NCBI GenBank assembly: GCA_015075625.1
Contig: JABTTZ010000004.1
Span: 62,001 to 126,000 of the forward strand
Direction of reading: 5' to 3'
Length of the DNA stretch: 64,000 bases
From: Anaerolineales bacterium
Lineage (GTDB): Bacteria; Chloroflexota; Anaerolineae; Aggregatilineales; UBA2796
Shown here: positions 518 to 55,849 of the stretch, piece after piece
How the letters are laid out: every line of letters begins with the position of its first letter
How positions within the stretch are numbered: position 1 is the first letter of the stretch
Notes under the pieces: generated by a model
Told to the model about the DNA's origin: nothing
Seen by the model: the letters and a program-made list of their open reading frames with translations, nothing else
Databases searched by the model: none
Program-made: the position numbers and the translations under genes

Positions 518-2710
518 CTACCTTGCCGGTGTCGGCGTTGGCACAACCACACAGCGAGGATCGGCAGTAACCTCATCAAACAAGACATATCCTACCGCCC
601 CAAGCGCCGTGACCCGCCACCAACGTGTACCGTCCTCGGCATCGATAAGCATATCGGCGGCGACGGGATCGTTCTGTGGCATGATGCGGATGGCGCTCCG
701 GCGGAGGCTTGGACCCGCCCGCACCTGAACGCTGATGTCCGTTGTCGAAACGGTGCAGAAAGGAGTCGGAGTCATCGTTGGGGTGATTGGCGTCGGGGTT
801 GGTGTGTAGACGATCCCGCACGTCTCACCGAGGATCACCTCCCGATCATCGACCCATGCCGTCTCCCCATCGGGATAGAACACGCGCCACCAGCGCTCCC
901 CATTTTCCTCAAAAATCTCCACCACTGATACGGGCTGTGTCCGCAGTACACGGACGACGGTGCTTTGGGTGTTGGGACGTGAGCGCACCTTCGCATCAAA
1001 GCCCTTCGCCGTCACAGTGCAGGGCGCATTGGCGGCAACCCCTTCAGCAATCTTGGTCGCAAAATTTGGCGTGTTGGTCGCCGTCAGGGTGAACGTTGGA
1101 GAGGGCGTGTTCGTCACCGTCGGTGTAGCGGTGGGCGTGTGGGTTGCCGTCGCCGTGAAGGTTGCGGTGAAGGTGTTTGTAGGTGTCGCCGTGAAGGTTG
1201 GGGTAAAGGTTGTCGTGAGCGTGTTTGTGGGTATCGCCGTCGCCGTAAAGGTCAGCGTTGGTGATGGGGTAAAGGTGGCGGTGGGTGTGAACGTTTTCGT
1301 GAACGAGGCAACGGCGTTCGCCGTCGCCACCTCAGCGGTTGCTGTATCCTGCTGCTGGACGAGTGCCACTGCTGTTGCCCGCAAGTTGGGCGTTGGTGTC
1401 TTGGTGAACGACGCCACAGCGTTCGCCGTCTGGGTGACGCGCTCCGTCAGGATGAGTACCGCTTGCGTCAGCGGCGGTGGTTCATCGGTTGGGCTGGCGG
1501 TGACGGTTGCCGAGGCGGTGTTCGTGAGACTGGGTGTGATCGATGGTGCGTCCGTCGTCGCCGCCGCGAGGGCAGCAGCCGTAGGAGTCAGGCTGACTGT
1601 CGCGCTCCGATTTAGGGCGAGAATGGCAACCACCACCACCAGAACGCCCACCACCCCCACGAGCGCGGGGATAAGCCACCCCCGCTGCTTCGCTTGGGGT
1701 TCTTCGCCAGGCTTGAATAGTGAGGTTGGCGTGCCAGAGGGGGTGCTGCCACCCCCTTCCCCAATAACCGTTGACGCCCGCCCCATGGTGCTTGCGCCAA
1801 CAGTGGGCATCGTCCCCGTAGCCCGCTCCAAAGGGACATCAATTAAGGTGACAATGGGCGGCGATGTTGTGTCGGAGAGGAACGTCCCTTCGAGAGCATC
1901 CTCGAACGCCTTTGCCAAGTCCCCGGCAGAGGCGTAGCGCTGCGCGGGGTCTTTCGCCATTGCCGTGCTGACGGCATGAGAAACCGCCACAGAAAACTTT
2001 TCCCGCAGTTCTGCCAGGGGTGGCGGCTCGTTCACATGCTTGTGCATCAACACAAAGGCAGTGTCGGCATCAAAGGGCAAGCGCCCCAAGAGCATTTCGT
2101 AGAGGATTGTCCCTAGTGCGTAAATATCCGTGCGGGCATCAACAGGATCGCCCCGCCACTGCTCCGGCGCCATGTAATAGGGCGTTCCCATAATCGCCCC
2201 CGCCTTCGTCGCCGTTGCCGCTTGGTTAGAACTGACGATCTTGGCGATCCCAAAATCAGTTAGGAAGGCATTTCCACCTTCGTCCAACATGACATTTTGG
2301 GGCTTCAGGTCGCGGTGAATGATCCCCCGACGGTGGGCATAATCAAGCGCCGAGGTAATCTGATTCAGGAGCGCTTTCACCTTCTTTGGTGGAATTGCCC
2401 CTGCGCTGATTTTATCGGCAAGCGAGCCACCCGTGAGCAGTTCCATGACGAGGTAAACCATCCCCTCGTGCTTGCCGTAATCGAACACTTTCAAAATATG
2501 GGCATGACTCAGCGAGGCAATCGTCTCTACCTCACGCTCAAAGCGTTTTGTGAATTCCGTGTCGCCCGCGTGCTGCTGCGTGATCACCTTGATCGCCACA
2601 TCACGCTTCATCGTCGTTTGGCGGGCGCGGTAGACTGTTGCCATCCCCCCCTGCCCTAACGGGGAGATAATCTCGTAATTGCCGAGGTGCTGCCCAATCA
2701 AATCCGCCAT
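518..2710 (-). CDS. Transmembrane Ser/Thr protein kinase with two extracellular SH3b domains
   Basis: This is a Hanks-type (PknB-like) kinase that phosphorylates Ser/Thr of cytoplasmic targets. The kinase domain fills residues 11-275: glycine loop LGQGGMATVY (18-27), Lys41, HRDLKPQN (132-139) with catalytic Asp134, DFG (152-154) and APE (181-183). All key residues are present, so it should be active. One membrane helix lies at about 343-366. It is followed by a long Thr/Pro/Ala-rich linker and two SH3b-like domains (about 550-625 and 645-720), each with an RWWRV motif. SH3b domains usually bind cell-wall or peptide ligands, which suggests an envelope-sensing receptor kinase (inference). It is divergent from the GMC oxidoreductase gene and directly followed by a membrane protein gene. 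Confidence 0.95.
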   Translation of the reverse strand: MADLIGQHLGNYEIISPLGQGGMATVYRARQTTMKRDVAIKVITQQHAGDTEFTKRFEREVETIASLSHAHILKVFDYGKHEGMVYLVMELLTGGSLADKISAGAIPPKKVKALLNQITSALDYAHRRGIIHRDLKPQNVMLDEGGNAFLTDFGIAKIVSSNQAATATKAGAIMGTPYYMAPEQWRGDPVDARTDIYALGTILYEMLLGRLPFDADTAFVLMHKHVNEPPPLAELREKFSVAVSHAVSTAMAKDPAQRYASAGDLAKAFEDALEGTFLSDTTSPPIVTLIDVPLERATGTMPTVGASTMGRASTVIGEGGGSTPSGTPTSLFKPGEEPQAKQRGWLIPALVGVVGVLVVVVAILALNRSATVSLTPTAAALAAATTDAPSITPSLTNTASATVTASPTDEPPPLTQAVLILTERVTQTANAVASFTKTPTPNLRATAVALVQQQDTATAEVATANAVASFTKTFTPTATFTPSPTLTFTATAIPTNTLTTTFTPTFTATPTNTFTATFTATATHTPTATPTVTNTPSPTFTLTATNTPNFATKIAEGVAANAPCTVTAKGFDAKVRSRPNTQSTVVRVLRTQPVSVVEIFEENGERWWRVFYPDGETAWVDDREVILGETCGIVYTPTPTPITPTMTPTPFCTVSTTDISVQVRAGPSLRRSAIRIMPQNDPVAADMLIDAEDGTRWWRVTALGAVGYVLFDEVTADPRCVVVPTPTPAR

Positions 2711-9950: not shown

Positions 9951-12900
9951 ATGGCGACGACAAACCTTCGTGCCTATCTTGGCGAATTGAACAGCCTTCT
10001 TGAACAAGAAGCGCTGGAGGAAGTGATCGGTCACTGCCGCCATATTTTGCAGCACTTCCCCAAAAATGTAGAGACCTACCGTATCTTAGGGCAGGCACTT
10101 CTTGCACGGGGGCGCAACGACGAGGCTGTAGAGGTTTTTCAGCGCGTCCTCGGCGCTATCCCAGACGACCTGATCGGGACGTTTGGGATGAGCCGCGCCA
10201 ACGAACACCGCGATCCAAACGCCGCCCTCTGGTATATGGCGCGGACGCTTGATCAAGAACCCCATAACGACACCTTTCGGGAGGAACTGCGGGCACTTCT
10301 TGCCTCACGGGATGGCGACCTTCCCGAATCAATCCCGCTCACACGGGGGGCGCTGGCACGCCTTTATCTGCGCGGCGGGATGTACACAAACGCCATAGCC
10401 GAACTGATCAGTGCCTATAACGAGTCGCCCCAACGTGCAGATTTGGGCGTCCTCTTGGCGCAAGCACAGTGGGTGAGTGGCGATATGGTTGGTGCGGGCG
10501 AGACGGCGCTCCGTCTTTTAGAAACGAATCCCGACTGCCTAGAGGGAAATAAAATCTTTGCCGCCTATTGGATCAGGCTAGGACGCCCCTCTGACGCCGC
10601 ACCGTTTGTCTCTCGTCTGGAGCGACTTGATCCCTTCGCGGCTTGGGAGGCTGTTCACGGGGAGGGCGCGTCCCCACCGGAAAACGCTTTTAGCCTGCCC
10701 CGCCTTGTCTGGGATGCCCGTGCCGCTGCCCAAATGGCAACCGATGTCCCCGATTGGGTGTCCAGCATTGGCGAGGTGTTCGAGGCACCGGAATTATTCT
10801 CGCCAAGCACTGGCATTGGCGGAAATACCCCCTTTAACACCGATGCCAGTGGGACATTTACGATGCCCGTTGGGACGAAAGACCCGCTTGGTACAGGGTC
10901 GCTCCGCAAGCGCACGGGTATCACCGATATGTTCAACACCCCTACCGAAGAGGCTGCCTCTGGCGAAGCGCCGGATTGGTTTAAAGACATTGCCGAGGAT
11001 ACAGGGATGGGAACACCCCCTCTACCGCTCTCCGGCGGGGCGACCTGGCTAGACGAAGATGACGATTTGCCTAATTTGTCTTTTGATGCTGCGCCTAGCA
11101 CCGCCGATCTAGGCGGCGCGGCATGGCTGGCAGACGATGACAATGGCTTTCCCAATCTCACCCTTGATGCCGCCCCTAGCACCGCTGATTTAGGCGGCGC
11201 AGCGTGGTTGGCAGACGATGACGCCAGCGAGGACGTTCCCGCCGTTGATCCGTTGGCATGGCTGCAAACTGGGCAACTCACCGATCCTGATGCCACCTCC
11301 ACATCGCTCACCGCAGCGGAAGAAGACGAACCCGCCCTTGATTCGTTGGCATGGCTGCAAACTGGACAACTCACCGATCCTGATGCCACCTCCGCACCGC
11401 TCACCGCAGCGGAAGAAGACGAACCCGCCCTTGATTCGTTGGCATGGCTGCAAACTGGGCAACTCATCGATCCCGATACGCTGCCGCGGTCTGCTCAACC
11501 CATTGCCGCTGAAGAACCTGATGGCTTGGATGTTGGCTGGCTACTTGGGGAACAGCCCTCCCCTAGTGCCGAATTGTTCCCAAATGCGGCTGATGCCTTA
11601 GCCACATTTGATGTTCAGTCCGCCGAGTCCGCCCTTGACGCGCCAATGACCTTCGAGCGTGAAGGGGATATGCCAGAGGACGAACTTGCCCTAGACTTCA
11701 GCTTCCAAAGCCTTGAACTGCCTGCCATGCCCGCCCCATCCGCCCCTGAACTTAGTGGGGAGTTCGATTTTAATGCTGATCTCGCCCCTGATTGGCTCAG
11801 CAGCGAGACGCCCTCCAACGATTTCACCGAACTCGGCACAGCGCTTGACACCCTCAGCCTCTCTGAGACTCTCTCCGACAAAGGCGAAACCGCCCCTGCT
11901 GCCGAGGGCGACTTAGCGTTTGATTGGCTCAGCGGTGGCTTGGATTTACCCGACACCCCTACGTCAGCGCTCTCCTCGGCGGAAAGCACCGAGGATGATA
12001 CGCTGCTAACCGCAGACGCCCTGGCGCGAGATTGGTTGGGTGATGATGCCACCAGCCTTAGTACATCGGTGGTGCTTCCCGCTGCTACCGCACCCGATGA
12101 TCTAGACTGGCTGGCTGCCGATTTACCGCCCTTACCAACGACGCCCCCCATGCTGGAACGTTCCCCTGAGCTTAATTTTGAGGCGGAGTCCCTGCTGGAA
12201 GTGGGAAGCGAAAGGCTGGACATTGACTTATCCATTTTGGAAGGCTTTGCTCCCGATATAGCCCCGCCCGATGCCGCGCCCGATCCAATGGCGTGGTTTC
12301 AGCAGTTCCAAGCGACGGGCGAAGTACCTTCGGCGCCGCTCTTGGGAGAAGAAGGGGACGAAGCCGCCGCCGAAAGCGCTCCGGCGGCGGCTCTTGGTGT
12401 TGATTTTGACTCGCCGGAGGAGGCGCTCAACTTCCTGCTTAGTGATTCCCCCGCTGAAGAATCATCTGAGGAACGGCGCGAAGCCTCTGAAGCAGACGTG
12501 CTGGCATGGTTGCAAACGGAAAACACCGCTCCCTCTGGCGACCCGCTCGCTGCCCTGACGTTGGAACGTGAATTTGGGATCACCACGCCGCCGCCTGCCG
12601 AAGCCCCACCCTCTGCCGGATTGGATTGGCTGAACACTACTCCTGCTGCCCAACCCCAAGCCGATTGGCTGCAATCAATGCCCGCTGCCGCGCCTGCCGC
12701 GTCTACCAGTACCGATCTTGATGAATTTGCCATCCTGTTTGAAGCGAATTTGCCCGCCTTTAGCCCTCCTGATGATGCTCAATCTGCCGCGATCACTCCG
12801 CCTATGGAGATAGATTGGTTGGCGAAAGCGCAAGGGGGAGAAGGCGGACAACCAACGCCCGTCTTGGGAACGCCCCTGAACGAAACTCCCGCCGATTTCG

Positions 12901-13763
12901 GAGACTCGCTGGACTTGGGCGGCGGTCTGACAATCACCCCTCCCGAAACGCCGGCTGAACCAACCCGGGATGACAGTGAACTTCCGCTGTACAAACGCAA
13001 GGTGACGGCAGCCCTCCCGACCATGATCACGACACCGCTCAGCCCGCCTCAGGAATCGAATGAGGCAAGCCCCTCGTGGCTGACGGGCGATCTCTTTGGT
13101 GAGCCTGCCGCTGCGACAGACACAGATGGCGAGGATTGGCGTGCTGGCGCAGAGGCGCAGTTTGAAAACCTGATTCAAGCCACATCTGAGCGCGTGAACC
13201 AGCCGCTTGATACCGGCGAATTGATCGCTTCCGATGCGGCACTCCTCAGCGGCGATCAACCCTCGTGGCTGACTGATTTTGGCGAAGCAGTTCAGGACAC
13301 CCTAGATACCGCGCCTTCACCAGCGTCTATTGCCATGGAGTCCGTTGCGGAGTCCTCCTTTGATTTGGGGTCACTCTTTGGCGAGGGTGGTTTCACCGGA
13401 ACAACCAGCGACTCAGCAGATGCCTCTCAACCCGTTGATCTATCGGAAGCGCTGGATGCTTACAGAACACAGGATGCCGAGACAGAGATTGCCCCGGCGG
13501 AGGGGATGCCCGATTGGTTGCAACAGGCGCGGATTGGCGGTGAGCCTGATTTCCTGCCCGGCGCAGCGGGTGATTCACTCTCTGGTTTAGAGGCGCTCGA
13601 TTTTGGCAGCTTGGAAACCTTCGAGGCAAGCGCTGATCCCTTTGCCGCCCCTACTGGCGCTGAGACAAACCAACCGCCGCCAGCCAACGAAGGTGGAACA
13701 GAAGGGGACGGCAGTGACTTTACCTTCACGAAACTGCCTGCATGGAAACGTAAAAAGAAGTGA
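9951..13763 (+). CDS. Giant acidic protein: N-terminal TPR domain plus many WL motifs
   Basis: A 1270-aa protein of unknown function. Residues 1-230 are tetratricopeptide repeats (for example ILGQALLARGRNDEAVEVF), a protein-binding fold. The rest is acidic, low-complexity and probably disordered, dotted with short motifs of the form (D/A/S/P)-W-L: AWLADDD, AWLQTGQL, DWLSGG, PSWLTDF, PDWLQQA. Three near-identical 31-residue repeats lie around residues 430-508. The C-terminus is basic (PAWKRKKK). No signal peptide or membrane helix. GGGGAA precedes ATG 9951. The next gene encodes a second protein of the same style, with its TPR-like part at the other end, so the two probably work together. It resembles uncharacterised Anaerolineae TPR proteins from memory; no function is known to me. 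Confidence 0.85.
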   Translation: MATTNLRAYLGELNSLLEQEALEEVIGHCRHILQHFPKNVETYRILGQALLARGRNDEAVEVFQRVLGAIPDDLIGTFGMSRANEHRDPNAALWYMARTLDQEPHNDTFREELRALLASRDGDLPESIPLTRGALARLYLRGGMYTNAIAELISAYNESPQRADLGVLLAQAQWVSGDMVGAGETALRLLETNPDCLEGNKIFAAYWIRLGRPSDAAPFVSRLERLDPFAAWEAVHGEGASPPENAFSLPRLVWDARAAAQMATDVPDWVSSIGEVFEAPELFSPSTGIGGNTPFNTDASGTFTMPVGTKDPLGTGSLRKRTGITDMFNTPTEEAASGEAPDWFKDIAEDTGMGTPPLPLSGGATWLDEDDDLPNLSFDAAPSTADLGGAAWLADDDNGFPNLTLDAAPSTADLGGAAWLADDDASEDVPAVDPLAWLQTGQLTDPDATSTSLTAAEEDEPALDSLAWLQTGQLTDPDATSAPLTAAEEDEPALDSLAWLQTGQLIDPDTLPRSAQPIAAEEPDGLDVGWLLGEQPSPSAELFPNAADALATFDVQSAESALDAPMTFEREGDMPEDELALDFSFQSLELPAMPAPSAPELSGEFDFNADLAPDWLSSETPSNDFTELGTALDTLSLSETLSDKGETAPAAEGDLAFDWLSGGLDLPDTPTSALSSAESTEDDTLLTADALARDWLGDDATSLSTSVVLPAATAPDDLDWLAADLPPLPTTPPMLERSPELNFEAESLLEVGSERLDIDLSILEGFAPDIAPPDAAPDPMAWFQQFQATGEVPSAPLLGEEGDEAAAESAPAAALGVDFDSPEEALNFLLSDSPAEESSEERREASEADVLAWLQTENTAPSGDPLAALTLEREFGITTPPPAEAPPSAGLDWLNTTPAAQPQADWLQSMPAAAPAASTSTDLDEFAILFEANLPAFSPPDDAQSAAITPPMEIDWLAKAQGGEGGQPTPVLGTPLNETPADFGDSLDLGGGLTITPPETPAEPTRDDSELPLYKRKVTAALPTMITTPLSPPQESNEASPSWLTGDLFGEPAAATDTDGEDWRAGAEAQFENLIQATSERVNQPLDTGELIASDAALLSGDQPSWLTDFGEAVQDTLDTAPSPASIAMESVAESSFDLGSLFGEGGFTGTTSDSADASQPVDLSEALDAYRTQDAETEIAPAEGMPDWLQQARIGGEPDFLPGAAGDSLSGLEALDFGSLETFEASADPFAAPTGAETNQPPPANEGGTEGDGSDFTFTKLPAWKRKKK
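11238..11473 (+). repeat. Tandem 93-bp coding repeat, 2.5 copies
   Basis: Units start at 11238, 11331 and 11424 and differ at few positions. Each encodes 31 residues containing LAWLQTGQL and AAEEDEPA. A shorter repeat just upstream (about 11100-11225), with AAPSTADLGGAAWLADDD, shows the same mode of growth. Near-identity at DNA level points to recent duplication within the gene. Confidence 0.85.
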
Positions 13764-13945
13764 GGTGCAGAGACCTCCGTATAGAGTACTTGCCCTGAGC
13801 CTGACTAAGACCCACCATGTGAAGGGCAAGTTCGGTGTACTTCCTAGAAGTGCGCTACAATAGGGTTTAGGAATTTTTTTTGGTCGCTTTTAGGTGTTCA
13901 TAGTCTCAGACGCGGGCAGATGGCGCACAGACATTAGAGGTACGA

Positions 13946-16900
13946 ATGACCCCACCACCCAATGGCAGTGATGCCAACAAGCCGGATGACGATCCCCTCG
14001 GTGGCGTTGATCCCATGGCATGGTTGGAGAGTTTGGCGCGGCGGCAAGGGGCAGACCCCGCCGAACTCGTCACCGGCGGGACGCTCGACCTTCCGCCTGA
14101 AAATGCCGACGACACCATCCCAATCACCCCTGTTGCCTCAAGCGCTACCACCTCGCCCATTGGGGGAATTGGGACGGATGATGATCTCAGCGCCATGCTC
14201 GACGGGGCAGACCCAATGTCATGGCTGGAATCGCTTGCCAAACGGCAGGGCGCAGACCCCGCCGAACTGGTCACCGGCGGGATGATGGAACTCCCTCCCG
14301 AAGAAGGCGAAAAACTGGAAGACCTCGGTGAAGCAAGCCTTCGGGATATTTTTGGTAGCGCCGTTGATTCCTTGAACTTTACGCCCGCCGATTTCTCCGA
14401 ACCCGCCGTTGCCGATGATCCGCTTGGGGGCGCTGACCCGATGGCATGGTTGGAAAGTCTGGCGCGGCGGCAGGGGGCAGACCCCGCCGAACTCGTCACC
14501 GGTGGGACAATGGATTTGCCCCCAGAGGCGGAAACCGTCATACCCGCCGCCGACCTGACCCCCGAACCAACCGCCGCCCCAATGGGCAGCAGCACGGGCG
14601 GCACAACGGGGATCACCTCCGACGCCGAATTGGATGACCTCCTCGGCGGGGAAGACCCTATGAAATGGTTGGAGCGTCTCGCCGCCAATCAGGGCGCAGC
14701 GATGAATGAACTCGTCACGATGAAGACGGATATTCCTGCGCCAAGTGATGTTCAAGGGGATGTTCTTGTTCCGCCCCCTGCCGCGCCAGAACCCATCACA
14801 CCCGCCGCCAGCCTCACACCCGAACCCAGGGCGAGTATAGGGAGCGGTGGCACAACAGGGATCACCGCTGACGCCGAACTCACCGACCTCCTCGGCGGGG
14901 AAGACCCCATGAAGTGGTTGGAGCGCCTTGCCGCCAATCAGGGGGCGAACACCGATGAACTGGTGACCATGCGTGGGACGCAAGAAGCGCCGCTCACCCC
15001 AGAGCCTACACACAGCGAGCCACCCCTCACGCCCATGGAACCCGAACCGATTATGCCCGCTGCCAGCCTCACGCCCGAACCAATGGCGAGTACGAGCAGC
15101 GGCGGCACAACGGGGATCACCGCTGACGCCGAACTGACCGATCTTCTCGGCGGCGAAGACCCCATGCAGTGGTTGGAGCGCTTGGCGGCACAACAGGGGG
15201 CAAATGCTGATGAACTGGTGACGATGAATGTCGTTGCCCAAGAATTCCGCCGTCCTCCACCCGAACCCGCACCCATCGAAACCCCCTCACAGCCTGAGCC
15301 GCTTACCCCTGAGCCGATGATGGCGATGGATGCAGTACCAGAAGCAGCACCAGCCGCCGATCTGACCTTTGACCTTGACGCTCTTTTGAGCGGGCTTGCC
15401 TCCCCCTTAGAGGGCATGGACGCCACAGGCGACAGCGGTGGGACAATGCCCGACTTCGCGCCCATGCCCGATCTTGATTTTGGGTCTGATGTTGCCGCTG
15501 AATCGACAGAGGCAGTGACCATGGGCGATGCCCTTGCCGGGTCGGATACGCTCCAGTGGTTGGAGAGCCTCACCAGCGGTGCTGGCGGGTTCGAGTCCTC
15601 CTTAGAGACAGAGGCTGCGCCTCCCTCCGATACCGCCCTTATGGATGCCGATTCTGTCCTGAGTTGGCTGCAATCCGTTTCCGAAGGCGATGATGCCCCT
15701 GTGCTGCCCACCGCCGCTGTAGAGCCAGATTACACGCCCCGATTCACCCCTGTGGAGATGCCCCCCGCCGAACCAACTATCTCTATGGAAGGTGGTATGT
15801 CCGATGATCCGGCAGAAGTCTTGAAATGGCTAGAACGGCAGACGCAGCGCTTAGAAGAAATCCGCGAAGATTTCGAGAACATGCCTATTCCCGGCGATGA
15901 CTCCCCGGCTGTCCCCGGCGAGATTCCTTCATGGTTGGCGGGAAATATCAGCGTTACCGAGACTGATGCTGCCTTGCCGAGTGTCACTGCCCTGTCCGAT
16001 GATGTCGCACTGCCCACTATTGGGACAGACTTCCCCAGTTGGCTGACCGAGCCGATTGCCGAGGAAGGCAGCCTGACCGACCTGATGGCGGCGTTGGGAG
16101 ATACCGCCCCGCCTGTTGAGGAAACACCGCGTCTCACCATCGAAAGCACACCCATTTCCGATGTCGAACTGGCACGCCTCACGCAACCCGGTTCGCCCGA
16201 TGAGATCGACTCGTGGGCAGAGGCGTTTGATGATGAAGAACGCCGCCGTATGGGGATGGAGGAAGAAGTTCCCGATTGGTATCGGGAGGCAATGCTGCGT
16301 GTAGATCAAGAACGTCCCCGCGACGTTCCTCCCATCGCAGCGGGCGAAATGCCCTCGTGGTTGGAAGTCCCACCCCAAGAGGATGTCCTCCCTGCCGTTC
16401 CTGACGAAGCAGGTATTCCAGCGTGGCTGACGCAAATGGCAAGCGGGCTGGATGATGCCCCTGTCGCCCGTCCCGCTGCGCCGACCCCCGAACCCGATTT
16501 CGAGGCGCTAAAATCCTTCGACATGACGGACGATATGGCAGCCGAGTTGGCAGCAGCGCTTACCCCCGAACGGGTTGAATCGCCCCTGCCTGTACAGCCC
16601 CCACCAGCGCCCACTGCTGCCCCAATTGTGACGCGCACACCTGAACCGCCGCGCCCTGTCCAGCCGCCGCCGCCACCGGAACGGCGTATTCCGGCAATCA
16701 CACCTTTTGTCCTCAGCGAAGCACGGGAACTCGCTGGTACAGGACAGATCGCCCCGGCGTTGGAGAAATATCAGGCGCTTGTTGATCATGCCGAGAGTTT
16801 GGAAGATGTCCGCGCCGACCTGCGCACAATTGCGCAGCAAAACCCCAAAGAGCCGAAGGTGTTCCGCCTCTTAGGGGATACCCATATGCGCCTCGGTGAT

Positions 16901-16948
16901 CTTCAAGCAGCGTTGGATACCTATCTAAACGCGCTCAACCAGTTATAG
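13946..16948 (+). CDS. Giant acidic protein: tandem DPM-WLE repeats, C-terminal TPR-like domain
   Basis: A 1000-aa protein of unknown function. Residues about 18-430 carry six copies of a motif LGG-x-DPM-x-WLE-x-LA, each followed by QGA and ELVT and separated by Pro/Ala/Glu-rich spacers. Further on come looser WL motifs (SWLQSVS, KWLERQT, PSWLAGN, PSWLTEP, PSWLEVP, PAWLTQM). The last 85 residues look like TPR helices (ARELAGTGQIAPALEKY and LLGDTHMRLGDLQAAL). No signal peptide or membrane helix. GAGG precedes ATG 13946. It follows the 1270-aa gene by 182 bases on the same strand. A scaffold that gathers many copies of a WL-binding partner is a reasonable guess, not a known role. Confidence 0.85.
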   Translation: MTPPPNGSDANKPDDDPLGGVDPMAWLESLARRQGADPAELVTGGTLDLPPENADDTIPITPVASSATTSPIGGIGTDDDLSAMLDGADPMSWLESLAKRQGADPAELVTGGMMELPPEEGEKLEDLGEASLRDIFGSAVDSLNFTPADFSEPAVADDPLGGADPMAWLESLARRQGADPAELVTGGTMDLPPEAETVIPAADLTPEPTAAPMGSSTGGTTGITSDAELDDLLGGEDPMKWLERLAANQGAAMNELVTMKTDIPAPSDVQGDVLVPPPAAPEPITPAASLTPEPRASIGSGGTTGITADAELTDLLGGEDPMKWLERLAANQGANTDELVTMRGTQEAPLTPEPTHSEPPLTPMEPEPIMPAASLTPEPMASTSSGGTTGITADAELTDLLGGEDPMQWLERLAAQQGANADELVTMNVVAQEFRRPPPEPAPIETPSQPEPLTPEPMMAMDAVPEAAPAADLTFDLDALLSGLASPLEGMDATGDSGGTMPDFAPMPDLDFGSDVAAESTEAVTMGDALAGSDTLQWLESLTSGAGGFESSLETEAAPPSDTALMDADSVLSWLQSVSEGDDAPVLPTAAVEPDYTPRFTPVEMPPAEPTISMEGGMSDDPAEVLKWLERQTQRLEEIREDFENMPIPGDDSPAVPGEIPSWLAGNISVTETDAALPSVTALSDDVALPTIGTDFPSWLTEPIAEEGSLTDLMAALGDTAPPVEETPRLTIESTPISDVELARLTQPGSPDEIDSWAEAFDDEERRRMGMEEEVPDWYREAMLRVDQERPRDVPPIAAGEMPSWLEVPPQEDVLPAVPDEAGIPAWLTQMASGLDDAPVARPAAPTPEPDFEALKSFDMTDDMAAELAAALTPERVESPLPVQPPPAPTAAPIVTRTPEPPRPVQPPPPPERRIPAITPFVLSEARELAGTGQIAPALEKYQALVDHAESLEDVRADLRTIAQQNPKEPKVFRLLGDTHMRLGDLQAALDTYLNALNQL
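13998..15230 (+). repeat. Six dispersed copies of a ~90-bp coding repeat
   Basis: Copies begin near 13998, 14209, 14430, 14642, 14890 and 15150. Each encodes DPM-x-WLE-x-LA followed by QGA and ELVT. The first three share RRQGADPAELVTGG or a close variant; the last three share ANQGA or AQQGA and ELVTM, so they form two subgroups. The spacing varies with the spacer length. Confidence 0.85.
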
Positions 16949-25256: not shown

Positions 25257-26768
25257 ATGAATAGTGTTTTATTCCTCGGCGGCACAGCATTACGAGGGGA
25301 TCATCAGGCGCTTCCAGCCTCCCTCCGTTACAGCTTCAAAGAAGCCCGTGATCTCGGCACAGATAGCGATGCGGTGATGGCACTTGCCGCCCGGATGATC
25401 GATGATGCGGGAACGTATGCGGCAGTGCTGCTGGATGTCGAATTCTTCGGAGGGAGTGACGCCGGACTTGAGGCGACACTTGCCCTTCTGAGTCGGGTGA
25501 ACAGCGTGAAGCACCTCTTGGTTATTCTAAGTGGGACGCCCAAAGACCTCCCAAACTTGATCGCCCGTGTCGGAGATCGTTACCTCCGCCGCCCAGACGG
25601 GCTGCGCGGGGAGGTACTTACCCTCTGGCGCGGGGAATTGGGCGCCCGTCTTGCCCATTTGCTCACCAGCCAGCCCTCCCCCGAACGAGAGCAGCCCTCG
25701 GCACTTCTTGAAACGCCGAGTGGGATGGCAGCAGGTGTGGCTGTCCGCCGGCAACGCCCGCCGGATATTCCCCAAGCGGATATGGACACGCTGATCGCGG
25801 ATATGCTGCGCGGGCGGTTGATTCCCATTGTTGGGGCGGGACTGTACGATTATCCAGAGACAAACCACTACCGCTATACCCGTGATAAGTTGGCAGCGCA
25901 TTTGTTTGCCTATCACGATTTACCCTCGTTGGAAAACCCGCTCCGCAACCTGCCGGGGATTTCCCACTGGGTAAAGCGCTTGAAAGGCGATGCCACCCTC
26001 AAGGAAAACATCACAACGATTATCCAAGAGGAAGAAGATAAGTACCGCGATAATCGGGAAAGCGTGTTAGCCGTTGATCACCCCCTGCGTTTGTTGGCGC
26101 AGCTTCCTTTTCATGGCTATGTGACGACGGAATATGACGATTTGCTCTACTCTGAATTGAAAAAACGGCGGAAAACGCCGCGTCGCTCGCTGGTCAGCTG
26201 GTTCAAAAAGTCCAGCAAAGCCTATGAGGAGTTCTATCGGCAGTTGGATAAGACGAACACGACACTTGCCAAAGTGGATCAACTTTCGCACATCGAATCT
26301 GGCGCAGACGATGAAAAAGAACCGTTCGTTCTCTACCTAAATGGAAACAAAGACGTGCCGCGCTCCATGGTCGTCACCGAGATGGATTACATCCATTACC
26401 TACGCAGTGACACAAAAGACTTTCCCACCGCCATTCAGGAACGCATCCAAAATGTACCACTCTTGTTTTTAGGGCATGGCTTGTTCGATTGGAGTTTTAA
26501 ATTTGTCTTGAAAAGCCTGTTTCCCGGCGGGGTAGGTCACTCGTTGTTCCGCGAGATACTGACCAGCGACGGGGGGGGCAGTACTGCCGTAGAGACATGG
26601 TGTTACGCCGTTGAGCCAGATTTTGAAGATTATTCCCCCCGCCACCGCGATTACATCATTCAATACTATGGTGCGTTAGGGATTCGTGTTTTTTGGGCAG
26701 ACCCGCAAGCCTTCTTAAAAAGCGTGATCGACGCCTATACCGCCCGTACCGCCGCCACCGGAGGCTAA
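25257..26768 (+). CDS. SIR2-like protein with N-terminal receiver-like domain; catalytic residues replaced
   Basis: A 503-aa protein, first of a four-gene operon. Residues 1-135 look like a diverged receiver domain (AVLLDVEFFGG, LLVILSGT, RYLRRP); the usual N-terminal acidic pair is missing. From about 175 comes a SIR2-like domain: IPIVGAGLYDYP (nucleotide loop, about 190), VTTEYDDLLYS, LYLNGNKDVPRSMVVTEMDY, LLFLGHGLFDWSFKFVL. In NADase SIR2 proteins the second and third blocks read TTNYD and LHGD; here Asn is Glu and His is Asn, so NAD cleavage is doubtful and NAD binding or sensing is likelier (inference). The start could also be ATG 25248; neither has a strong ribosome site. The stop lies five bases before the STAND gene. 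Confidence 0.85.
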   Translation: MNSVLFLGGTALRGDHQALPASLRYSFKEARDLGTDSDAVMALAARMIDDAGTYAAVLLDVEFFGGSDAGLEATLALLSRVNSVKHLLVILSGTPKDLPNLIARVGDRYLRRPDGLRGEVLTLWRGELGARLAHLLTSQPSPEREQPSALLETPSGMAAGVAVRRQRPPDIPQADMDTLIADMLRGRLIPIVGAGLYDYPETNHYRYTRDKLAAHLFAYHDLPSLENPLRNLPGISHWVKRLKGDATLKENITTIIQEEEDKYRDNRESVLAVDHPLRLLAQLPFHGYVTTEYDDLLYSELKKRRKTPRRSLVSWFKKSSKAYEEFYRQLDKTNTTLAKVDQLSHIESGADDEKEPFVLYLNGNKDVPRSMVVTEMDYIHYLRSDTKDFPTAIQERIQNVPLLFLGHGLFDWSFKFVLKSLFPGGVGHSLFREILTSDGGGSTAVETWCYAVEPDFEDYSPRHRDYIIQYYGALGIRVFWADPQAFLKSVIDAYTARTAATGG

Positions 26769-26773
26769 CTGAC

Positions 26774-29700
26774 GTGACCTTCACTAACCCTTACCCCGGC
26801 AGACCGTACCACGAAGCCCATCCCCATTTCTATGGGCGGGAAACGGAAACCGATGATATATACCGGCTGATTGTCGCCAACGCGCTAGTGATTCTGCATG
26901 CCGTCTCTGGCGCGGGCAAAACCTCCCTGATCAACGCCAGTTTAATCCCCCGCTTGAGGAAGGAAAACCTTCAAGTTCTCCCCAAAGCGCGGGTGAACGA
27001 CCCACTTCCATTAGGAGAAGGGGCATTGGGGAATGTATTTAGCCAGAGCGTGATCCGCTATTGGCAGCGCGGCGGGTGGGGGGATACCATGCTGAGCGAG
27101 GCGACACTTCGTGAGATGTCTTTGGCGGACTACCTTGCCACCAACCGCCTTTACAACGAGACAAGTTACGGCACGAAGAAACCCCGCGTCGTGATTATTG
27201 ACCAAGCCGAGGAAATTTTCAGCCTACACAAGGAACGATGGGCAGACCGCCGCCCCTTCTTTGAGCAAATTCAGGCGGCGCTGGTGGCAGATCGCTATTT
27301 GCGTATTTTGTTGGCGCTGCGGACGGATTACCTCGGCTATTTTGTCGATAACCGCGAGGCGACCAGCCCGCTTGAAGGGATGGTTGAGACGCGGATCATG
27401 ATCCAACCATTAGACAAAGATCAGGTGATTGAGGTTATTCGCCGCCCAATGGAAGCGACGGGGTTCACCTTCTCCAACGCTGACGTTGTGGAGGCGCTCA
27501 AAACAGAACTGATGACAGAGAGCAGTCCCACCCACGAATTTGGCTATGAGGCGCAGTACGCCAAACCGATCCTTGTTCAGTTACGCCTTTACAAACTGTG
27601 GGACAAATTGCGCACCTACCAGCAGATGACGATCAGCGAGGATGTCCTCAGCGCGTACCCCATTCGCGATACACTTCGCGAAATTTATGAAGATGCCATT
27701 GCGCTGGGAGTGGTGCGCAATGTGTCTGGGGGCTTGGGTGCTGGGCAAGAGGGGGAAGGGCTGGCGGAGGCATTTTGCTACAGCACAGAAAGCCTTCGTC
27801 GCCTGATTCGCGAGCGGTTTTTGGCGGGCGAGGCACGGATCATGTATGAGGCGACCAGCGATGCGAACAAAAACGCCTATGCTGTCCTCAAGGATGCCGG
27901 CTTGCTTACCGATGAAAAGCGCGGCGAGCGCGACATTTACGAACTCTCTCACGATAGCTTTGTTGCCCCGGTGAAGTCGGATATTCCCCGTGAGGCAGTG
28001 GTTATTTTTTACCCCGCTGGACTGCGCTCCGCCAGTGATGTGCAAGCCGGGGAAAGGGCATGGCTGGTCTTTGAGGAACTGCTGCGGCTGCTCTACACAA
28101 CGCCCCTAACCGATGCGGACGGAACACGCCTTGATCTCGTCATTCTTCCACTGGATGAGAGGACGGGTGAATGTGCCTTGCCTTCTGATGGGTTTGATTC
28201 CGTTGGCGTTGAGGCTCTGCCTGCCAGCCCTTACGCAGTGCTGGTTGTGGAGGGAATATTCGAGGGGGAAAACGAGCCACCCCTGATTAGCGCAGCGCGG
28301 CGCTTATTGGAAGCGAACTGCCGCCCTCTGCTGACGCTTTCCTTAGCCTCATTGGATAATCAAGGGGTTTTTGCCGAGGTTTTGGCGGCGCTTGGAACGC
28401 GCCTCGCCCTTGCGCCGGTAGATCACCTGCCCATGCCAGATCGTGTTTATGAATCTTTCTATTTGCCAATGGCGCTCGGAAAACTGCACGAGGCGGTGAA
28501 CAAACCGACCATCCGTGAGCGCGTCGTGGGTATTGTGGGCGATGACAACCTGGGGAAATCCCAATTGGTGTGGCGTTTGGCGCGGCATTGTGATGTCCGC
28601 ACCCTTTTTGAGCGTATTGAGCGGATCGTAGAGGGGGGCGACTCCCCCCTTAATCCGGCGCAGCTTGTGACCGACGAAAAGCTCTTGATCATCTTGGACG
28701 ATGTGGCGCTACCCGGTACGCTGCTGAACACCTACCTTCGGGAAGACGCCCACTATACTATCCTTGTGACCACCCGCGAGCGCGGCGTCTTGCCCGCCGA
28801 AACAACCTCAGTGGTTGAGATGGTCTTTTCCGATTGGGCAGATGTGGAAAGTCTCTTTCGGGGTGAGACACCCTCAGCAGAGGGGGCGACACCCGATGCC
28901 CAGTCCCCCATGACAGAGATTGCCCAATCGCAATACAGTGCCGATATTCTGAATTTGGATTCAGGAAAGGGCAGCAAAGGGCGAGTCGGTGGGTTGGCGG
29001 ATGTGCTAGGGCGTGATCCGGGTGTGATCCGTCTGGCGCAAAAGGCGGTGAATCTCTACCGTTTTGATCCTATTGGCGGGCGCACCCTTCCCGCCGCCCA
29101 AAAAGCGTTGGTCGATGCGCTTGGCAAAGAATTCGTCGGGCTTTCTGACGGGCAAAAGCGGGATCACCTTTACCGCCATCTCCAAAAGACAATGGGTGTG
29201 CCAGCCTACCAAGCCCTGATACTCTTTACCTTGTTTCCCGCCGGGGCGGATGTGCCGCCAGCGGTCATAGAGCGGTTGCTCACCCGCACAGGAGAAAAGG
29301 ATCGCCTTCGCCGCCTTCTGGAACTCGAACTTGTTGAGCGCGATACGGAAGGCGATCTCTATGTGGATCGTTTGCTCTACGAATCCATCGTCCGCCATGA
29401 TCCATCCATCGCTGCCTTGCGCCGCGATCACACACTCTTTGCCCGGACGGATTTTGCGTACCTTGCCGCACGAGTCGTCTCCACCCGCCGCGCCTCTGTG
29501 GTGGAGGCAGAACTGCGGGATTTGCTGAATGATTCCGAGGTGATTCATTCTGAGCCTGATCGCACTCAGCTTGCCCACTTGCGGGGTTGGTTTGCCCGTA
29601 TGGCGCACGTCTTAGATCGCGCCGATGACGCCCGCACTGTCCTTCAAACGCTATCGATCAGTGCCGGAGACATTTTCCCCGCGCTGCGGGAGCGCGTTCT

Positions 29701-31663
29701 TGGCGATATGGCAACGCACCTGCGGGCAACACAGGCAGTGCCACAGATCGCCGCCGTCCAAATTCGCGGGCTTGTTGGCTATACCGAGGGCGTCCGCGCC
29801 AGCGCCATTAGCCCCGATGGGCGGCAGGTAGTTGGCGGCTCGGATAAGGGTGAGGTGATTCTTTGGGAGGTGGACACTGGGGCAAAGCTCCGCGCCTTTG
29901 ACGGGCATAAAGGGTTGATTGCCGACTGTGCCTTCACCCCCGATGGGCGTTACCTTGCCAGCGCTGGACTTTTTGACGGGCTGCGTGTCTGGGATCGGGA
30001 GACGGGCGAAGCCGTTTTTGAAGAAGATGAATTACGCCCCGTCAGCGTTCATTTTTCGGCGGATGGAACGTTGCTGCTCGTCACCGATGACCGCACCGAA
30101 AATCTGTTTATCTATGACATTCAGAGCAGCCCGCCAAAAGTCATTGGGCGGGTGGAGGGTCACGCTGACGCCGCTATGAGCAGCCATCCCGATGGGCGGT
30201 TGATCCTGACCACGAAACGCAATCAGGTGTTTCTCTATGACCGCGAAACACTGACGGTGATTCATCAGGAACGCCTTGCAATGAGCGATGGTGAGGCGTG
30301 GGGATGCGCCCTTAGCGCCGACGAACGTTACTTTGCCTTCGGTACATCGGAAGGCAAGATCACTTTGGGGAGCGTTGCCGAAAGGCGCATCCTCGACACA
30401 AAAGAGGTTTCACGGGTTGTCACCAACGAGGGACGCAGCGTTTTCCGCTGTGTTTTTAGTCACGATGGGCGCTATCTCTTTAACCCCTTTGGGGCAGCCG
30501 TCCAAGTGTGGCACATCAGCGAAAGCGGCACTTTGGAACACGTCCGCGAGCTTGCCGGACACACGGGCGAACTCTGGAGCATTACGACGAACGATGGCGG
30601 AAATCGGCTGGTGACAGGCAGCCTTGATACAACGGTGAAAGTTTGGGATATGGCTCAGATTGGGCAGGCAAACGCCCAAATGCACGAGGCGCGGGTGTGG
30701 GGGTTGAGCGCTGCTCCATTGGGGGTGAGAGGAAATGTACCGCTCATCGCTACCGGAGCGCTGGATCGCACAGCGCGGCTTTGGAAAGCCGAGGAGGAGG
30801 ATGGGATATGGCAGGTCGTAGGTATTGCTCCCCATAACACGCCGGTTATCGAGTCCCTTCTCAGCAGCAGCGGCGAGCGGCTGTACACCTTTTGCAACGA
30901 TAAAACGATGCACATGTGGGATGTGCGCGTTCCCGATGCCCCTCTGCGGCAAAGCACACTCGCCGCCAATTCGTGGTCGGTGAACCGAGCGATCCTTACC
31001 AAAACTGAGAGCGGATCGGATGTGCTTATTGGTATTGGGGATGACAAAACGGTTTACCTCCTCAACGCCGATCTGGGGAAGATAGGGTCATGTTATGTGA
31101 CGAACCCCGCCGCCTTCGTCAGCGATGCTGCGCTGCGCTATACAGTAGATGGCAAGCCGCAGCTTCTTACGGCGTGGTCGGATGCCACCGCCCGCCTCTT
31201 TGATCTGGACTCACTGAACACGCCACGCCCGCACCTGAACCGCGAATTCAACCATTCTGATGTGGATCGCTTGGCGCAAGTTTCCGCCTGTGCCTTTGCC
31301 CCCGATGGGCGCCTTGCGGTGACAGCCGTCCAAGTAGAGAGCAAAAACGAATACACCCTTTACCTGTGGAATATGGAAGATTTCCGTCGCCTGCGGGAGA
31401 TTGGGAGGCTGAACACCCGGCACAAATCGCGGGTTCACCGGTTAGCTGTCAGCCCCGATGGAAACTACCTCGCCTCGTTGGAAGATGCCGGGGCGCTGCG
31501 GGTATGGAGCTTTCCCACAGGCGAACTGGTGACGGCGGTCTACCTTGACGAGGCGCTCTCAAATGTCTTGTGGTTGCCCATGACGACAAACCAAGTGGGC
31601 AGCTATCCACTGGTTGCCACCGGACGGCATGGGGTGTATTTCCTGACGCTAGGGGGAGTGTAA
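26774..31663 (+). CDS. STAND protein: nSTAND1-like NTPase, second P-loop NTPase, 14-blade WD40
   Basis: A 1629-aa signal-transduction ATPase. Residues 5-60 match the nSTAND1 entry segment (NPYPGRPYHE, HFYGRE) with Walker A SGAGKTS (45-51) and Walker B VVIIDQAEEIF (139-149). An alpha/beta segment of unknown type spans about 408-550. A second NTPase of NB-ARC/AP-ATPase style follows: Walker A GDDNLGKS (about 588-595), Walker B LLIILDDVA (about 636), and TILVTTRERG. A helical region leads to WD40 repeats from about 996 to the end; I count 14 blades, enough for two seven-blade propellers. The start is GTG 26774, fixed by GGAGG at 26760-26764; the longer frame from 26693 overlaps the SIR2-like gene. 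Likely an NTP-switched sensor acting with the SIR2-like partner. Confidence 0.92.
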   Translation: MTFTNPYPGRPYHEAHPHFYGRETETDDIYRLIVANALVILHAVSGAGKTSLINASLIPRLRKENLQVLPKARVNDPLPLGEGALGNVFSQSVIRYWQRGGWGDTMLSEATLREMSLADYLATNRLYNETSYGTKKPRVVIIDQAEEIFSLHKERWADRRPFFEQIQAALVADRYLRILLALRTDYLGYFVDNREATSPLEGMVETRIMIQPLDKDQVIEVIRRPMEATGFTFSNADVVEALKTELMTESSPTHEFGYEAQYAKPILVQLRLYKLWDKLRTYQQMTISEDVLSAYPIRDTLREIYEDAIALGVVRNVSGGLGAGQEGEGLAEAFCYSTESLRRLIRERFLAGEARIMYEATSDANKNAYAVLKDAGLLTDEKRGERDIYELSHDSFVAPVKSDIPREAVVIFYPAGLRSASDVQAGERAWLVFEELLRLLYTTPLTDADGTRLDLVILPLDERTGECALPSDGFDSVGVEALPASPYAVLVVEGIFEGENEPPLISAARRLLEANCRPLLTLSLASLDNQGVFAEVLAALGTRLALAPVDHLPMPDRVYESFYLPMALGKLHEAVNKPTIRERVVGIVGDDNLGKSQLVWRLARHCDVRTLFERIERIVEGGDSPLNPAQLVTDEKLLIILDDVALPGTLLNTYLREDAHYTILVTTRERGVLPAETTSVVEMVFSDWADVESLFRGETPSAEGATPDAQSPMTEIAQSQYSADILNLDSGKGSKGRVGGLADVLGRDPGVIRLAQKAVNLYRFDPIGGRTLPAAQKALVDALGKEFVGLSDGQKRDHLYRHLQKTMGVPAYQALILFTLFPAGADVPPAVIERLLTRTGEKDRLRRLLELELVERDTEGDLYVDRLLYESIVRHDPSIAALRRDHTLFARTDFAYLAARVVSTRRASVVEAELRDLLNDSEVIHSEPDRTQLAHLRGWFARMAHVLDRADDARTVLQTLSISAGDIFPALRERVLGDMATHLRATQAVPQIAAVQIRGLVGYTEGVRASAISPDGRQVVGGSDKGEVILWEVDTGAKLRAFDGHKGLIADCAFTPDGRYLASAGLFDGLRVWDRETGEAVFEEDELRPVSVHFSADGTLLLVTDDRTENLFIYDIQSSPPKVIGRVEGHADAAMSSHPDGRLILTTKRNQVFLYDRETLTVIHQERLAMSDGEAWGCALSADERYFAFGTSEGKITLGSVAERRILDTKEVSRVVTNEGRSVFRCVFSHDGRYLFNPFGAAVQVWHISESGTLEHVRELAGHTGELWSITTNDGGNRLVTGSLDTTVKVWDMAQIGQANAQMHEARVWGLSAAPLGVRGNVPLIATGALDRTARLWKAEEEDGIWQVVGIAPHNTPVIESLLSSSGERLYTFCNDKTMHMWDVRVPDAPLRQSTLAANSWSVNRAILTKTESGSDVLIGIGDDKTVYLLNADLGKIGSCYVTNPAAFVSDAALRYTVDGKPQLLTAWSDATARLFDLDSLNTPRPHLNREFNHSDVDRLAQVSACAFAPDGRLAVTAVQVESKNEYTLYLWNMEDFRRLREIGRLNTRHKSRVHRLAVSPDGNYLASLEDAGALRVWSFPTGELVTAVYLDEALSNVLWLPMTTNQVGSYPLVATGRHGVYFLTLGGV

Positions 31664-32551: not shown

Positions 32552-34372
32552 TCACCCCTTCAAGTCGCTGACAGATTTTTCCAATTCGGTGAGCTGCTGT
32601 GTATGGGCGGCAAGCTCCGCTTTGATCGTATCCGCTTGCGAGAGGTAGGTTTCGACCATTCGCAAAAAGGGTGCTACGGCGTCCCCGCGCAATTGCCGTC
32701 CATAGCTGATCTGTTCTCGTGCCGCGCTCATAAAGCGCTCGCTGTATTCTCGTTTTAACGCCTCTAAGCGCCGTCCATAGGCATTTGCCATCAGCCACCC
32801 GCGCAAGGGGAGGGCGGCGATTCCGCCAAGCATGGCGGCGAACATGGCAACGATCAACAACCCCGCCGAATTTCCCTGATTCGCCACACTGAGCAGCGTC
32901 AGCAGCAAACAACCCATGATTAGAATGCTCAAGAGATAGACGACCAGCGTCCCCGCTGTCATGCGAATCTGCCCATCAAGGGTGTCGGTCTCCATCTGCT
33001 GCGCTTTTTCAAGTGTTCCTGAAAGATCATCCCGCGCTTTATCCCACAGCGTCCGATCATAACGGGCAGGGGGGGTGAGATCGCCAATGACCTTCCCGCG
33101 CAGCGCACCGGGAAGGCGTTCTAACTCCCGCTGCGCATAGAGGACGAGATCATCAGTATCTTTCACATCGCGCCCTTCCAGACGCGGCGGGACGCGCTCC
33201 ACAAGCGGGGGGATCGTCGTCAGTGGTTCGATCACCCGCGCCCGTTCTGCCGCCGGAAGCATCCGGCTGACGACGACACTTCGCCGCCGAAACAAGCGCG
33301 GAAAGCGAATCACCTGCCCCAACCCGCTGAAAAGCAAGGGAAACACCTTTGACCACTGGAAAGTTTCGCGCAGAAGCGCTTTGCCGCGTAGTGCCGTTTC
33401 GTCAAATGCCGTTTCAAGGGCGGTGACAACCTCCCGCACGGTGGTGTCTTGTTCCTTTTGAGCGGCGTCAATCTGCCCACGAACATTTGCCGCCGAGCGT
33501 CGGTATTCGGCAAGGGCGTCTTGCTGTTCACGGATGCGGATATTAGCGGCGCTCATCACATTGCGGGCGATTTGAAGGGGTGTCTCCAGCTTTTGCCGCG
33601 CCCGTTCCACATCGCTTAGGGCGCGATTCAGATAGGTTTCAAACTGGCTGAATCCGCTCTGTTCCCAGAGGCGGGAATCACGCGGGGCGCTCTTTTGCGC
33701 CTCGCTCGCTAAGCGCGAGGAGACCAACCATACCTGAGGCTGTACGCCAAAGGCAGCCCGCACTTGCTCTGTGACAAAGCTCTGTAATGTTCCCCGTTCG
33801 CCTTCGTCCACAAGGTCAATCTGGTTGATCACGACGATCACTCGCTTGCCATAATCACGCAGCGATTCAAGGTATTCGCGATTGCTTGCCGACATTGCCT
33901 GCGTTGCCAACATGACATGAAAGACCAGATCGGCGCGGTGGAGGAACTTGCCGGTAATGGCATCATGCCCTTTGAAGACGGAATCGAGTCCGGGGGTATC
34001 CACAAGGCTGACACGCTCTAAGAGAGGGGTGGGGTGAAAGATCGTCTGAATATCGCTGCCGCCCATCGTCTGAGCGGTGCTGCCATGCCGCAGAATAGCG
34101 ATACGATCTGTGGTCGGTGTCGCCCCGACGCTGAGGACATTTTCCCCGATTAGGGCATTGATCAGGCTGGATTTTCCGGTGTTGAACGCGCCCAGAAACA
34201 CAGCAAGGTAGGGATGATCGGCATGAAAGAGGGCGTCCCGTGCCTGCTCAAGCTGGTCGGGAGGCAGTCCGTCCACCTTTCCTAATGTATCGACAAAGGC
34301 GGTCATCCCCTCAACGGTCTTTTGACGAAGTGCTTCATAGCGGGTGAGCAAGCCGGGGCGTTCAACAATCAC
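32552..34372 (-). CDS. Dynamin-like GTPase with C-terminal membrane hairpin
   Basis: A bacterial dynamin-like protein (606 aa). G1 is GAFNTGKSS (61-69), the G2 threonines lie in TPTTD (85-89), G3 is DTPGLDS (125-131) and G4 NQID (183-186). Long helical regions follow, with two closely spaced membrane helices at about 475-525 and a coiled-coil end. Such proteins remodel or guard membranes. The start is read as GTG 34372; an internal ATG at residue 23 is possible. It is convergent with the SIR2/STAND operon, 42 bases from its last gene, so a functional link is possible but not shown. Confidence 0.9.
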   Translation of the reverse strand: MIVERPGLLTRYEALRQKTVEGMTAFVDTLGKVDGLPPDQLEQARDALFHADHPYLAVFLGAFNTGKSSLINALIGENVLSVGATPTTDRIAILRHGSTAQTMGGSDIQTIFHPTPLLERVSLVDTPGLDSVFKGHDAITGKFLHRADLVFHVMLATQAMSASNREYLESLRDYGKRVIVVINQIDLVDEGERGTLQSFVTEQVRAAFGVQPQVWLVSSRLASEAQKSAPRDSRLWEQSGFSQFETYLNRALSDVERARQKLETPLQIARNVMSAANIRIREQQDALAEYRRSAANVRGQIDAAQKEQDTTVREVVTALETAFDETALRGKALLRETFQWSKVFPLLFSGLGQVIRFPRLFRRRSVVVSRMLPAAERARVIEPLTTIPPLVERVPPRLEGRDVKDTDDLVLYAQRELERLPGALRGKVIGDLTPPARYDRTLWDKARDDLSGTLEKAQQMETDTLDGQIRMTAGTLVVYLLSILIMGCLLLTLLSVANQGNSAGLLIVAMFAAMLGGIAALPLRGWLMANAYGRRLEALKREYSERFMSAAREQISYGRQLRGDAVAPFLRMVETYLSQADTIKAELAAHTQQLTELEKSVSDLKG

Positions 34373-55714: not shown

Positions 55715-55849
55715 GTCCTGTCCTCGTTTCGTCTCCTGCACGGTGACCTAAAATCATTGTAGTACAAGTCCTGAGACGAAGGACGCTCCCAAAATGTTCC
55801 CATCCGCTTCCCTTAACCTTATGCACAGCCCTGACCTTGCGCAGTGGGC

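Follow-up and report, generated by a model that had tools for sequence, protein, structure and literature searches.

A conserved Chloroflexota protein with tetratricopeptide repeat ends and a Trp-Leu motif array, encoded by two adjacent genes in one order

The groove of the tetratricopeptide repeat (TPR) domain of kinesin light chain takes up an intramolecular acidic region. It also binds acidic Trp peptides, and the structure with the SKIP peptide TNLEWDDSAI has been solved (PMC6214655). PEX5, the peroxisomal import receptor, combines TPRs with a long disordered region, where several WxxxF/Y motifs become partly helical and bind to one small domain within a membrane protein (PMC8086558). In bacteria, SgmX of Myxococcus xanthus is about 1000 aa long and has been described as having N- and C-terminal TPR groups (PMC7519303) and, by another group, as having 14 TPRs throughout (PMC7668184). 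SgmX and Bd2492 of Bdellovibrio are TPR partners of MglA and belong to a small GTPase system.

The locus described here shares features with each of these systems. It lies in a stretch of 64,000 nt, below called the window, which comprises positions 62,001-126,000 of the forward strand of JABTTZ010000004.1 from an Anaerolineales bacterium (GCA_015075625.1). Two consecutive genes encode TPR domains joined to disordered arrays of Trp motifs, as in PEX5, but the motif is of the type WLxxhydrophobic, TPRs are found at both outer ends, and the host is a bacterium; a relationship to PEX5 is claimed only at the level of the generic TPR fold. Kinesin light chain provides a precedent for acidic short Trp motifs as TPR ligands, although it is eukaryotic and the SKIP peptide contains no WL. 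No motif-bearing disordered middle has been described for SgmX, and the genome containing the window has no MglA or PilT matches. Relatives of the pair that are encoded by one gene are linked to roadblock genes. Like the MglA/MglB and conservon modules, their neighbourhood outside the class Anaerolineae contains a roadblock/LC7 gene, but it contains ndk and the TPR scaffold and no GTPase gene, the MglA operon being found elsewhere.

One protein encoded by two adjacent genes

Gene 1 (9951-13763, forward strand) encodes 1270 aa: TPRs at the N-terminus, then an acidic, disordered chain of WL motifs. Gene 2 (13946-16948, forward strand) encodes 1000 aa with the opposite layout, a disordered WL chain and then a C-terminal TPR domain. 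A first-pass annotation had given these lengths and this mirrored TPR arrangement; the open reading frames match it exactly, and AlphaFold confirms the TPRs at both ends, Pfam clearly those of gene 1 and weakly those of gene 2. The chains are also, as it described them, acidic, with 18-19% D+E vs 4-5% K+R, and for the most part disordered.

Residues 1-250 of gene 1 (9951-10700, forward strand) are modelled as a solenoid of ~15 helices with pLDDT mostly >90. Residues 16-73 match TPR_19 (E 2.8e-15, 56.8 bits vs a cut-off of 25), and this score above the curated Pfam value, together with the solenoid model, places the protein in the TPR superfamily. A fold search with the N-terminal TPR domain returned generic TPR matches only (best Z 13.8), with no hint of function. 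The disordered region (10743-13760, forward strand) contains 18 motifs of the form [DAS]-W-L; its residues 261-300 have pLDDT 30-48 in the AlphaFold model, and disorder beyond residue 300 is judged from composition. AlphaFold places 628 of the 1000 residues of gene 2 at pLDDT <50. The C-terminal domain, residues 917-1000 (16694-16945, forward strand), is modelled at pLDDT 93-98; residues 926-997 give a weak TPR match below the Pfam cut-off, while the helix pairs are confidently predicted. This domain is kept to the last residue throughout the window's order, and the same domain terminates the one-gene relatives.

Within the order, gene 1 is matched in 36 of 41 genomes and gene 2 in 31 of 41, the window's own genome included. 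The genes are adjacent and in unchanged order in nearly all loci examined where the contig is long enough, L065 being fragmented. Complete gene 1 frames of relatives range from 783 to 1854 aa. Of 301 genomes from the phylum, 135 contain relatives recognised by a profile of the N-terminal TPR domain, nearly always one copy each. In other Anaerolineae and in other classes the N- and C-terminal profiles match opposite ends of a single frame, and in the class this frame has the internal order of the pair: N-terminal TPRs, a PDWL block, a WLExLAxxQGA block, a second PDWL block and C-terminal TPRs. The comparison shows that each of the two genes encodes half of a single protein conserved in Chloroflexota. 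Its family is defined here by N-terminal TPRs, motif array and C-terminal TPRs, and the window contributes two adjacent genes to it. The earlier picture of two separate giant proteins is therefore replaced by that of a single protein which was probably split once in the window's order.

All 21 order members examined have a gene 1 frame without the C-terminal TPR domain, a few of these frames ending at contig ends. In a tree of the N-terminal TPR domain a single branch separates the split rows from the others, which corresponds to 1 change (SH-aLRT 91). Among named public genomes, a set that partly overlaps the earlier one, 34 have the split form and 16 the one-gene form, the latter including the cultured Ornatilinea apprima. 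A single origin of the split appears probable, and parsimony favours the direction from one gene to two. With the scaffold divided over adjacent genes, the need for a physical linkage between its halves becomes testable.

The split site relative to the one-gene relatives corresponds to an intergenic gap of 182 bases (13764-13945, forward strand). It contains a 9-base inverted repeat (ACTTGCCCT / AGGGCAAGT) that is absent from a relative in the same genus, and its RNA fold is no better than that of shuffled sequences. Scans of the gene pair region for promoters, terminators and RNAs gave nothing clearly exceeding shuffles. Gene 1 of the window's genus has a basic C-terminal tail, PAWKRKKK (13725-13760); in many other members of the order a near-terminal [DE]-W-L-R motif takes its place.

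The motif array and its variants

In the disordered part of gene 1, 18 of 22 Trp residues are followed by Leu (5000 shuffles: mean 2.5, maximum 8), and in gene 2 this is the case for 13 of 15 (mean 1.4, maximum 7). The dozens of WL motifs noted in the first-pass annotation are thus found when the pair is taken together (31 WL). Their supposed regularity holds for the six N-terminal modules of gene 2 (14003-15244, forward strand), which are evenly spaced at 67-85 residues; the remaining spacing is free, the gaps between WL motifs being 48 ± 31 residues in gene 1 and 67 ± 31 in gene 2. The motif logo of gene 1 reads x-P-D-W-L-x-x-hydrophobic. The gene 2 modules follow D-P-M-x-W-L-E-x-L-A-x-x-Q-G-A, with the consensus D-P-M-A-W-L-E-S-L-A-x-R-Q-G-A, and each is predicted by AlphaFold to contain a short helix (residues 23-33, 90-100, 165-175, 238-252, 321-331 and 406-416). 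The models are suggestive of isolated short helices within a disordered chain of low confidence.

In the family proteins of the order WL occurs 545 times where 86 would be expected, and the full motif 190 times; in 196 neighbouring open reading frames there are 147 WL, with 114 expected, and five full motifs. The shuffles and the neighbouring proteins rule out a generic effect of composition. PDWL is not a proteome-wide trait of the genome either (42 matches to the DNA pattern vs 31 in the control), and the DNA pattern search found no further large PDWL cluster there; this count is based on the pattern search and on retrieved stretches. The motif pattern is conserved among orthologues. A motif whose sequence is retained while its spacing is free in a disordered chain is best read as serving multivalent binding in a scaffold. 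That part of the original interpretation stands; its framing as a pair of giant proteins does not.

Across the relatives, comparison indicates that conservation resides in the TPR ends and that the type of motif differs by lineage. The array motif of Anaerolineae is PDWLxxΦ. Outside the class, the clade of families f30, f40, f66, f69 and f87 has PFSLxxLGLSxEE (PFSL 168 vs 1.6, LGLxxEE 96 vs 0.1), and family f35 has WLxxLG (WLxxL 29 vs 1.4). Receptor binding would be expected to produce just such an array, constant within a lineage and switched between lineages while the TPR ends stay fixed. PDWLxxFG and PFSLxxLG have the pattern P-x-x-L-x-x-[LF]-G in common, and it may be speculated that both dock on the same receptor. 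The arrays are an unusually clear case of bacterial multivalent short linear motifs that are swapped between lineages with the folded ends retained. One of the one-gene relatives (L092:9510-14837, 1775 aa) has long tandem PFSLTDLGLSAEEIAMLNG repeats where the WL motifs would be. Other TPR relatives, belonging to several families, are found beside a TPR protein of 2200-2550 aa and a conserved gene of ~450 aa (L106:2098-13735 and L104:7800-16957).

In the window's order the motif has a second carrier, encoded elsewhere in the genome (C3:613901-617359, minus strand; L228:9899-13360). This protein of 1153 aa combines an acidic chain bearing P-x-W-[LM] motifs with hydrophobic, seemingly transmembrane segments at its C-terminus, and its operon also encodes DUF6754, small membrane proteins and a GlmL-like ASKHA protein (PF13941). 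The family is present in 22 of 25 genomes with the operon conserved, and all 16 distinct members examined have an excess of W motifs (17 rows, one gene being counted twice). It has no TPR match in Pfam, and no described function was found for it. Among the loci examined, motif arrays are essentially confined to this membrane family and the TPR family. The simplest explanation would be that both use one receptor, a concrete prediction that follows from the membrane-anchored family. A roadblock gene lies near the membrane operon in this genome; as it has no counterpart near that operon in relatives, it is treated as a chance neighbour.

Roadblock genes and the wider gene context

Outside the class, the one-gene form has a Robl_LC7 gene directly downstream, followed by ndk; the roadblock gene adjoins it in 46 of the 59 genomes listed. 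Both the TPR protein and a roadblock match are found in 101 of 301 genomes, the TPR protein alone in 34 of the 135 that bear it, roadblock alone in nine and neither in 157 (25, 6, 1 and 6 in the class alone), a co-occurrence that partly reflects shared ancestry. No roadblock gene was found beside the pair in the window or in its order, and ndk still adjoins the pair in many of the relatives there. The four roadblock proteins of the window's own genome were considered as orthologues of the neighbouring one, but they fall among other paralogues; the paralogue that accompanies the one-gene form is, judging from these comparisons, gone from the window's lineage. The neighbours ndk, histone deacetylase, rsfS and thpR, all named from sequence, look like old housekeeping synteny.

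The genome has no match to an MglA-type GTPase at E <= 1e-15, and none to the PilT family, used as a proxy for type IV pilus machinery, at E <= 1e-60. Within the class, one of 31 TPR-bearing genomes has an MglA-type match; outside it, the TPR protein and MglA are found together in 69 genomes, the TPR protein alone in 35, MglA alone in eight and neither in 151. Between the TPR protein and PilT the association is negative (both 4, TPR protein only 131, PilT only 39, neither 127). A role as an effector of type IV pili or MglA in the window's lineage is thus unsupported, and no pilus role is claimed, because the genome lacks matches to MglA, to PilT and to the cognate roadblock paralogue. In other Chloroflexota classes, genes named from sequence as roadblock and MglA-type GTPase form an operon (L128:4504-7016, L132:5537-7534, L133:6598-7707), which in L128 and L132 also encodes a DUF4388-like protein.

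Possible function of the scaffold

The function was originally said to be undescribed, and no assigned role has turned up for the orthologues. In the literature searched, no paper was found that treats roadblock and tetratricopeptide proteins jointly in Chloroflexota, or tetratricopeptide repeats and intrinsic disorder jointly in Anaerolineae. The proposal made here, which we hold with a confidence that tips neither way, is that the product of the two genes would be a multivalent hub in the cytoplasm. Upon docking on a small domain of a shared receptor, each W-L-x-x-hydrophobic motif would form a short amphipathic helix, so that one chain with many motifs could hold many receptor copies, while the TPR ends would bring in other partners. 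The hub would operate in the manner of PEX5 or SgmX, although it is classed with neither; PEX5 is the precedent for TPRs and disordered Trp-motif arrays operating like this (PMC8086558). The two products would be subunits of what was once a single chain. Because the genes remain side by side they probably act together, and synteny and the one-gene relatives point to one complex. In most genomes outside the class, a roadblock gene and ndk directly follow the one-gene form, which is why the ancestral setting is likely to have been a roadblock/LC7 (MglB-like) signalling module. In the window's lineage, the most concrete candidate for a co-user of the motif code is the membrane protein with its WL-bearing, presumably cytoplasmic tail, encoded in the conserved GlmL-like/DUF6754 operon. 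A scaffold that is usually single-copy, found across the phylum and linked by gene order to roadblock proteins could provide a direct handle on the organisation of the Chloroflexota cytoplasm.

The main rival holds that the TPR domains are themselves the WL receptors. The chains would then bind head to tail, to one another or within themselves, and form a self-associating mesh or an autoinhibited state released by a partner. Kinesin-1 TPR grooves indeed take acidic Trp motifs (PMC6214655), the WL motif is acidic and Trp-centred, and the array is always accompanied by both TPR ends. The same ends, however, go together with PFSLxxLGL in other classes, so that the specificity of the groove would have to change, and the separate membrane family bears the motif without a Pfam TPR match; we regard this arrangement as possible, but doubtful. 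That the protein could instead resemble SgmX, reading the state of a Ras-like GTPase/roadblock pair and switching a machine at the cell surface, type IV pili for example, is suggested by the N- and C-terminal TPR groups of SgmX, the latter of which bind MglA-GTP (PMC7519303, PMC7668184), by the adjoining roadblock gene outside the class and by the co-occurrence with MglA there. The near-complete lack of MglA-type matches in the class, the window's own genome included, and the anti-association with PilT make this unlikely.

It is also conceivable that the disordered region is a mere acidic spacer or entropic bristle, with the WL pattern as a by-product of repeat expansion, since length and spacing differ widely among relatives and gene 2 contains stretches that were recently duplicated in tandem. 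Against this, the order's families have a roughly six-fold excess of the motif at free spacing which is absent from neighbouring proteins, an unrelated membrane family bears the same motif, and retention of P-D-W-L-x-x-hydrophobic would not be expected under neutral expansion; we consider the spacer explanation very improbable. The multivalent hub can be extended to a phylum-specific motif code, W-L-x-x-hydrophobic or PFSLxxLGL, that would address one conserved receptor and gather TPR scaffolds and membrane tails into a sub-membrane hub, ancestrally under roadblock control. This wider version is put forward only tentatively; if true, such a hub would represent an unrecognised kind of multivalent adaptor system in bacteria.

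The window also contains genes of other kinds. A protein kinase with a bacterial SH3 domain is encoded at 518-2710 (minus strand), an nSTAND1 NTPase of 1656 aa with C-terminal WD40 repeats at 26693-31663, and a dynamin-family GTPase at 32552-34372 (minus strand). A bacterial alpha-2-macroglobulin of 1989 aa with several Big_5 domains is found at 49772-55741 (minus strand).
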